A DNA stretch of 26,323 nt from the NCBI RefSeq assembly GCF_000003605.2, contig NW_003128371.1:156071-182393 (forward strand), written 5' to 3'. Every line of letters begins with the position of its first letter. Position 1 is the first letter of the stretch. Both the position numbers and the translations under genes were made by a program. This document shows, piece by piece, positions 3,601-6,600 of the stretch. Origin of the DNA: Saccoglossus kowalevskii. Its lineage: Eukaryota > Hemichordata > Enteropneusta > Harrimaniidae. The notes beneath the pieces are model-generated. The model saw only the letters and a list, made by a program, of their open reading frames with translations, was not told the origin of the DNA and ran no database searches.

Positions 3601-6600
3601 TTCCTGGAGATTTACAAAATCTCAAATCTCCTATATCTTTGCTTTCGATGAGGTTGAAATGAATTCATTCAAGTTTATTGGTGTCTGAAATTTGTATTAC
3701 ATGATATCAAGACATTACCAGGAGTAAGTTTTATAGGTATATAGTACTGTAAAATGACTAATTTTCACTGGGTTTAAATTTTGCTGATTTACCATTTCAG
3801 GCATATTTAGAAGGTTTTGAATTCACGGTTTAATCATTTAGATAATGTGTTCTATGCTAAATTTTACATATTCACTGGGTTTTAATTTAGCGCATTTTCC
3901 AGTCAGGGAAATAATCAAATTAAAATCCAGTAATAATTAATCCTTTCACAGTATGCAATATTTTAGTAATTTATCCTGTTCAATTGCATAAATGGAAATG
4001 AACATTCTATCACTTTTTCTTTTACAGATTTACTCATTTTTTATTAGTATTCTAAGAAAAGTATGCTTGTTTTGCAATTTTGTATTCATCTCCCAATTCA
4101 TGTGACTTAATATTGAGATCCTCAATGCGTATCACACCAGTTACATTTCCTCATTTTATAAATCCATGCTGATATATTGGATGGCACGAAATGGCATGTA
4201 TCATGGTCCCATTACAATCAGTGTATGCATCAAGTACAAATCTATCCATGTACGACTAAGATCCGGCTCCAGAATGGTGAAAATGTGTGATTTTGATGCA
4301 TTTTTGGCTTTAAAATAGCTGCCATTTGGCCTTCTTGAATTGGACCAAGAAACAAATGCATGTGCATATGTCAGATATGATGTATGTGTGAAGTTTGAAC
4401 AAAATCCATCCATGCACAACTGAGATCTTGTTCTGGAATGGAAGAAATGTGTGATTTTGATACATTTTTGTTGTATGCTAGATTATTAAAAGATTAGTTA
4501 TTTTGACTATAGACACTTCTGCAATTTATACAAACACATGTGCGACCTCCATTGTAGGTAGCAAATATAAACAGCTGTTGAGTCAAGCCATTGAGCATAA
4601 ACCAAAAAAGATCACCTTATTTTCTCCCATCTTTTTTCTGAAAGATGTAAAATCCATAAATCCTTATAGTGATGGAATTTTGACTGGGTTGGTGAGGCAA
4701 ACTCTCCTCCGAACATCCAAAGCTGTCCACCACTCTGAGCTACCCCCACGGCCTGTTGGAATAATTCATGACAGATATATCAATGAAATCATTCAGATTA
4801 GGCGTATATGTATCATAATGGTAAGGGTAGAGAAAAATAATTATATACAAAGTCACATTTGGGTCAGTTTGATGACATATCAAATAAGTTTCTTTTGACC
4901 AACAGAAATGAGTCTGTGTGTCCTACCTAATGTGAGCATCTTAATGGTTACCCAGGGGTGAGTCTGTGTGTCCTACCTGATGTGAGCATCTTAATGGTTA
5001 CCCAGGGGTGAGTCTGTGTGTCCTACCCAATGTGAGCATCTTAATGGTTACCCAGGGGTGAGTCTGTGTGTCCTACCTGATGTGAGCATCTTAATGGTTA
5101 CCCAGGGGTGAGTCTGTGTGTCCTACCTGATGTAAGCATCATAATGGTGACCCAGGGGTGAGTCTGTGTGTCCTACCTGATGTGAGCATCTTAATGGTTA
5201 CCCAAAAGTGAGTCTGTGTGTCCTACCTGATGTGAGCATCTTAATGGTGACCCAGGGGTGAGTCTGTGTGTCCTACCTGATGTGAGCATCTTAATGGTTA
5301 CCCAGGGGTGAGTCTGTGTGTCCTACCTGATGTGAGCATCTTAATGGTGACCCAGGGGTGAGTCTGTGTGTCCTACCTGATGTGAGCATCTTAATGGTGA
5401 CCCAGGGGTGAGTCTGTGTGTCCTACCCGATGTAAGCATCTTAATGGTTACCCAGGAGTGAGTCTGTGTGTCCTACCTGATGTGAGCATCTTAATAGTGA
5501 CCCAGGGGTGAGTCTGTGTGTCCTACCCGATGTAAGCATCTTAATGGTTACCCAGGAGTGAGTCTGTGTGTCCTACCTGATGTGAGCATCTTAATGATGA
5601 CCTAGGGGTGAGTCTGTGTGTCTTACCTGATGTGAGCATCTTCATCGTCACTCAGGGGTGAATTAATCTGTGTGTCCTATATCTGATGTAAGCATCTTAA
5701 TGGTCACCCAGGGGTGAGTCTGTGTGTCCTACCTGATGTGAGCATCTTAATGGTGACCCAGCTAGGGGTGAGTCTGTGTGTCCTACCTGATGTGAGCATC
5801 TTAATGGTGACCCAGGGGTGAGTCTGTGTGTCCTACCTGATGTGAGCATCTTAATGGTGACCCAGGGGTGAGTCTGTGTGTCCTATCCAATGTGAGCATC
5901 TTAATGGTGACCCAGGGGTGAGTCTGTGTGTCCTACCTGATGTGAGCATCTTAATGGCAACCCAGGAGTAAGTCTGTGTGTCCTACCTGATGTGAGCATC
6001 TTAATGGCGACCCAGGGGTGAGTCTGTGTGTCCTACCTGATGTGAGCATCTTAATGGCGACCCAGGGGTGAGTCTGTGTGTCCTACCTGATGTGAGCATC
6101 TTAATGGCGACCCAGGGGTGAGTCTGTGTGTCCTACCTGATGTGAGCATCTTAATGGCGACCCAGGGGTGAGTCTGTGTGTCCTACCTGATGTGAGCATC
6201 TTAATGGTGACCCAGGGGTGAGTCTGTGTGTCCTACCTGATGTGAGCATCTTAATGGCAACCCAGGGGTGAGTCTGTGTGTCCTACTAGATGTTAGCATC
6301 TTAATAGTGACCCAGGGGTGAGTCTGTGTGTCCTACCTGATGTAAGCATCTTAAAGGTAAAAGGGGGATGCGTCTGTATGTCCACTTGATGTGAACATCT
6401 CAATGGTGAAAAACGGACAAGTCTGTGTGTCCTATCCGATGTGAGCATCTTAATGGTGACCCAGGGGTGAGTCTGTGTGTCCTACCTGATGTGAGCATCT
6501 TAATGGTTAAAAAGATATGTGCCTGTGTGTCCTACCTGATGTGAACATCTAGGAGGTGGAGCATTTGGAATTTTAACCAAGGTCCAACTGTTTTTCTTGA

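Follow-up and report, generated by a model that had tools for sequence, protein, structure and literature searches.

A minisatellite across the exon 4-intron 4 boundary of KLHDC4 in the hemichordate Saccoglossus kowalevskii

The intron that follows exon 4 of the Saccoglossus kowalevskii KLHDC4 gene raises the question of how an intron comes to consist largely of copies of its own 5′ splice site, and of what these copies mean for splicing. The locus was analysed within a stretch of 26,323 nucleotides, referred to as the window. A preliminary description of this DNA had proposed that the donor boundary is amplified about 32 times in the intron after exon 4, that the gene is KLHDC4, that the exon is ancestral and that the array derives from it.

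KLHDC4 and the array in intron 4

The minus strand of the window harbours six exons of KLHDC4 from the start codon onward (Table 1), and their joined translation, for which 25 combinations of exon 2 and exon 3 starts were tried, represents residues 1-203 of the S. kowalevskii protein P0121 with 203 of 203 residues identical. The next-best KLHDC4 proteins among the best 120 of 1038 matches were those of Glandiceps talaboti (75%) and Ptychodera flava (76%). In P0121 exon 4 is joined to exon 5 at the first, true donor. Exon 4 (99 nt) is flanked by introns of approximately 5.3 kb and 1.8 kb, the latter being intron 4 with a length of 1783 nt, of which the array accounts for 1627 nt or 91%. Elsewhere in the gene, a U8 small nucleolar RNA (RF00096; 11195-11336, minus strand; 51.1 bits against a gathering value of 41, E 1.1e-06) is situated inside intron 3 on the strand of its host gene. 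Near the KLHDC4 start, on the opposite strand, there is an open frame of 183 codons (15549-16097, plus), a 166-residue piece of which matches the vts1-like domain PF25479 (E 5.9e-20); we take this frame to be a ZCCHC14-like gene, human ZCCHC14 presumably also lying near KLHDC4.

Table 1. Positions in the window of KLHDC4 exons and of the parts of the intron 4 array (a slash marks the splice junction)
Feature	Position	Strand	Observation
KLHDC4 exons 1-3	15072-14962, 13261-13170, 12063-11985	minus	joined translation compared with the database protein
KLHDC4 exon 4	6536..6634	minus	99 nt, ends at a codon boundary (...PPPRCSHQ); acceptor GCAG, donor CAG/GTAGGA; translation equals P0121
Last 15 nt of exon 4	6536..6550	minus	codons R-C-S-H-Q; exonic part and source of the unit
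True 5′ splice site GT of intron 4	6534..6535	minus	joining there restores the database protein
Array, intronic part	4909..6535	minus	1627 nt, 32 boundary copies; TRF, unit parsing, intron arithmetic
Two diverged exon-proximal units	6352..6450	minus	damaged donors at 6435 and 6385; 10 and 11 mismatches
CAG/GTAAGA copy	5621..5629	minus	donor-like site with the top score in the array; 5626 is the G of GT
Rest of intron 4 with acceptor (TTCCAACAG)	4753..4908	minus	156 nt, intron arithmetic
KLHDC4 exon 5	4616..4752	minus	joined translation compared with the database protein
KLHDC4 exon 6	659-567	minus	joined translation compared with the database protein

A single array was detected by TRF at 4909-6550, with a period of 50, 32.7 copies and 90% matches, and it was parsed into 33 units, namely the exon boundary itself and 32 intronic copies, in agreement with the number first proposed. 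Read on the gene strand, the array starts at 6550 inside exon 4, whose final 15 nt lead unbroken into the intron (AGATGTTCACATCAG/GTAGGACACACAG), the GT of the true donor beginning at 6535. The consensus unit is AGATGCTCACATCAG/GTAGGACACACAGACTCACCCCTGGGTCACCATTA, comprising 15 exonic and 35 intronic nt, with the consensus boundary AGATGCTCACATCAG/GTAGGACACACAG. GT is kept at the donor position in 29 of the 32 intronic copies, AG/GT is intact in 24/32, and CAGGTA is present in 23/32 (22 copies of CAGGTAGGA and one of CAGGTAAGA), exactly the figure that had been estimated at the outset. The last copy ends 18 nt into its own intronic part, and the array thus amounts to 32 units plus 33 nt, i.e. 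32.66, which is not a whole number. The distal flank does not significantly resemble the portion of the unit that is missing, as 32% and 55% of random sites do equally well, and the possibility that this flank is a degenerate continuation of the unit was consequently not supported. A plain duplication would therefore require either a filler of approximately 17 nt or an eroded edge.

Source and turnover of the repeat

The exonic 15 nt of exon 4 agree with the unit consensus at 14 of 15 positions, the sole difference being TGC for TGT, which is synonymous and is the one exonic mismatch previously noticed. Both strands of the window outside the array lack a 15-mer that differs from the consensus exonic 15 bases by one mismatch or fewer, and the best minus-strand 15-mer, present at one site, has 3 mismatches; for equal base frequencies, the chance of at least 14 of 15 matches at one fixed position is approximately 46/4^15 = 4e-8. 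Among the best 120 of 242 homologue matches, 117 span the junction (3 were dropped for gaps), including ferns, a clubmoss and an oomycete; in these the junction residues R (117/117), H (113/117) and Q (111/117) are retained, while C (68/117) and S (59/117) are variable. A search for the motif P-x-x-R-[CS]-x-H-Q anywhere in the protein, regardless of position, found it in 120 of 120 longer matches (the best 120 of 1038, the species' own protein included). Judging by these alignments, R, H and Q at the exon end are conserved from animals to plants, and an exon end that is kept between animals and plants cannot stem from a local repeat, so that the repeat must derive from the exon. The homologues listed, together with the 14/15 match, thus support the view that exon 4 is ancestral and the array its derivative, and in this respect the initial reading of the locus was sound.

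The units of the array are not uniformly diverged. Counting from the exon boundary as unit 0, units 0, 2 and 3 carry 10, 10 and 11 mismatches to the consensus, as compared to 0-5 for units 4-31, with 7 in unit 17. This pattern of a homogenised interior and a diverged edge holds on the exon side only, and has exceptions in unit 1, which has no mismatch, and in the distal unit 32, which has 1 mismatch in 33 nt. Four consecutive units (starting at 6201, 6151, 6101 and 6051) share one single variant, and two adjacent 100-nt dimers, one from 5591 and the other from 5491, are identical but for one position. Such stretches of shared variants and duplicated dimers indicate later local turnover, and the turnover pattern as a whole is typical of minisatellites. 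As to the nature of the variants, several are swaps among CG, CA and TG (GGTCGCC, GGTCACC and GGTTGCC; TCGG, TCAG and TTGG), as methylated CpG might produce on decaying; the variant GGTAACC, which is frequent, falls outside these swaps.

The array is in all likelihood a neutral minisatellite of the kind termed mirage in amphioxus, born of a duplication across the exon 4-intron 4 boundary. The last 15 nt of exon 4 together with the first part of intron 4 would have been duplicated in tandem, following which unequal exchange or slippage may have amplified the 50-bp unit to its approximately 32 intronic copies. In a simple history, 33 nt around the boundary would have been duplicated and joined to a filler of approximately 17 nt, the resulting 50-nt unit then being amplified; alternatively, erosion of the last unit could have produced the incomplete edge. 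The donor would then be present in most copies because it was copied along, and not because it is used, while the authentic donor, being the one nearest to the exon 4 acceptor, would prevail by exon definition and the remainder would leave as an ordinary intron. A neutral minisatellite was one of several functional interpretations offered in the preliminary description, and it is the one that best fits donor positions without detectable constraint and internal donors that all lead to the same stop in the seven positions translated (7/7; see below).

Boundary-spanning minisatellites in other genes

It had been claimed that no intron of this kind had been described, a claim that we found to be wrong, as amphioxus mirages (PMC3087553, PMC3902484) and the human 6-16/IFI6 minisatellite are already on record. 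According to the available text of PMC3087553, the mirages of globin genes, and earlier of Adh3, are exon-intron boundaries duplicated in tandem in the manner of a minisatellite, in which AG/GT is present in many units, regular splicing is apparently undisturbed and length is unstable; the repeats evolve in concert inside a cluster while cluster boundaries are exempt from homogenisation. Mirages in troponin C, and similar repeats in PGBD5, are reported in the accessible part of PMC3902484, and the globin gene BflGb9 is a further example. On the basis of these texts, the KLHDC4 array likewise spans an exon-intron boundary with its exon copy in register and likewise keeps AG/GT in many units (24/32, and GT in 29/32), albeit in another phylum, the hemichordates, and in another gene. 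Its 32 intronic copies exceed those of amphioxus BflGb6 (6 and 3) and PGBD5 (2 to 7), a comparison that covers the figures at hand for these two genes.

The human 6-16/IFI6 (G1P3) minisatellite, which has multiple splice donors (Turri et al. 1995, as described in papers citing it), resembles the KLHDC4 array in being, by that description, a minisatellite with donor sites at an exon end, and two downstream repeat units of IFI6 are used as donors and give rise to isoforms (PMC4526556, in the text available). The KLHDC4 unit differs from that of IFI6 in being 50 nt in length and in that its extensions run into a stop from 7/7 internal donor positions, rather than staying in frame and open. The human repeat is reportedly made up of 26 copies of 12 nt, a length that is a multiple of three, and extensions into it are said to be in frame and open. 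In human duplicated genes, minisatellite expansion at exon-intron boundaries alters gene structure and may form introns (PMC2812944); as far as the accessible text goes, those repeats influence which sequence is exonic in recent paralogues, whereas in KLHDC4 an intron that was already present became longer. The gain of introns through tandemly duplicated AGGT segments (Rogers 1989) and the potato RdRp duplication, which crosses an intron-exon boundary (both as presented in the consulted part of PMC4974935), share with the KLHDC4 array a multiplication of splice signals; unlike in that type of intron gain, KLHDC4 shows the enlargement of an existing intron and no new one. PMC3039753 was considered as a parallel and set aside, as the minisatellite in its available text is located in a 5′UTR. 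No boundary-spanning minisatellite in hemichordates was found among the matches listed in the open-licence literature, judged mostly by title and the start of the abstract. The KLHDC4 array is a further and large case of a known structure, which it adds in a hemichordate to the examples from amphioxus and one human gene, and it exemplifies intron growth in that 91% of intron 4 consists of copies of its own boundary. It may also serve as a natural experiment on how splicing chooses one donor among some 24 near-equal sites placed 50 nt apart.

Donor-like copies and the choice of splice site

The claim that the CAG/GTAAGA copy at 5621 is closer to consensus than the true site was borne out, with scores of 7.07 versus 4.50 under a donor frequency matrix, not MaxEnt. 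By the same matrix, 24 of the 62 GT sites in the array, the true donor counted, equal or surpass the score of the true donor, one of them surpassing it; window-wide, this level is reached by 2.2% of 1472 minus-strand GT sites. The predicted energy of the U1 duplex is -10.7 kcal/mol for the CAGGTAGGA copies and -11.0 kcal/mol for the CAGGTAAGA copy. The nine donor positions hold 15 of 73 mismatches, close to the permutation mean of 13.1 (P(<=15) 0.70, P(>=15) 0.35), in a count that omits indels, of which a deletion in the unit at 6400 and a 2-nt insertion in the unit at 5697 hit donor positions. Permutation of the mismatches, indels left out, thus detected no selection on the donor positions, either for or against; they are neither conserved nor purged, and as far as sequence can tell the donor copies would be passengers. 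CAGGTA is missing from 3 of the 5 copies nearest to the exon and from 6 of the 27 others (P = 0.12); the damage to exon-proximal copies fits edge ageing or could hint at weak selection against near decoys, though at this P value a purging of near decoys was not upheld.

The true donor and seven internal donor positions, one of the seven lacking GT, were translated, and 7/7 of the internal positions add an identical 11 codons and then a stop, the twelfth codon of the extension. Extensions from donors further along the array share these opening bases, so the same stop would apply to all internal donors, and their use would truncate the protein. The position of exon 4, 99 nt in length between introns of about 5.3 and 1.8 kb, probably favours exon definition. 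The available text of PMC9225289 describes transfected exon-defined minigenes that carry two identical strong donors at a distance of 52 nt and in which the upstream one was chosen exclusively; these donors were CAG/guaagu, stronger than those of the KLHDC4 array, and where both donors were very weak two larger exons were mostly skipped while two smaller exons kept the upstream preference. Use of the first donor in KLHDC4 would be expected from the database protein model and by analogy with these minigenes, whose donor is the stronger. A single fold of 300 nt of the array was less stable than 198 of 200 shuffles (z +2.38), and on this one fold RNA structure is accordingly not expected to hide the donors.

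These observations bear on whether the array could be a ladder of functional donors. A ladder of real donors that is tolerated or useful, in which exon definition alone picks the first of some 24 equal-or-better sites and rare leaks produce poison extensions in proportion to copy number, is an improbable reading of the locus; if it were true, mirage arrays would characterise the genomes of invertebrate deuterostomes in general and not those of cephalochordates alone. Regulated use of internal donors, giving 3′-extended forms of exon 4 that meet an early stop and are degraded, thereby tuning the level of KLHDC4, or alternatively a role of the array as a platform or sink for U1, is more improbable still. 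Such a role would draw on the 24 of 62 GT sites scoring at or above the true donor (the latter included), on the accessibility of donors suggested by the single weak fold, on the uniform stop as codon 12 from 7/7 internal positions and on the two downstream units that IFI6 uses as donors (PMC4526556, as available); against it, the donor positions are no better conserved than the rest of the unit, the database protein is joined at the first donor, and the amphioxus Adh and troponin C mirages are reported, in the accessible part of PMC3902484, to occur without aberrant mRNAs.

Recursive splicing or intron birth, in which each 50-nt unit from GT to AG would act as a ratchet site or micro-intron, is very improbable. 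AG/GT is intact in 24/32 intronic copies as this would require, and boundary duplication has been proposed as a route to new introns (PMC3087553 and PMC4974935, in the parts available). The pyrimidine content before the unit AG averages 50%, however, at the level of the background (49%), whereas the acceptors of exons 4 and 6 reach 81% and 69%, which makes recursive splicing unlikely, although the true exon 5 acceptor is itself weak and at 56% is not above the best unit (56%); the array moreover sits inside an intron across which the expected exons are already joined. That a dispersed satellite was inserted beside exon 4, its match to the exon end being coincidental, is the least credible explanation, given that the 14/15 match keeps the register, coincides exactly with the exon end and involves conserved codons, and that a second copy is absent from the 26-kb window.

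The window contains other repeats. A 157-bp unit is repeated 2.2 times at 756-1096, in intron 5 near exon 6 and stopping short of that exon, with related copies within 2-214. A dispersed repeat resembling ACTGGGTTTAAATTTT is found at 3767-3816, 8456-8505 and 22606-22655, the second and third copies having 90% and 60% identity to the first, and an inverted pair related to it is present at 8507-8554 and 22585-22632.
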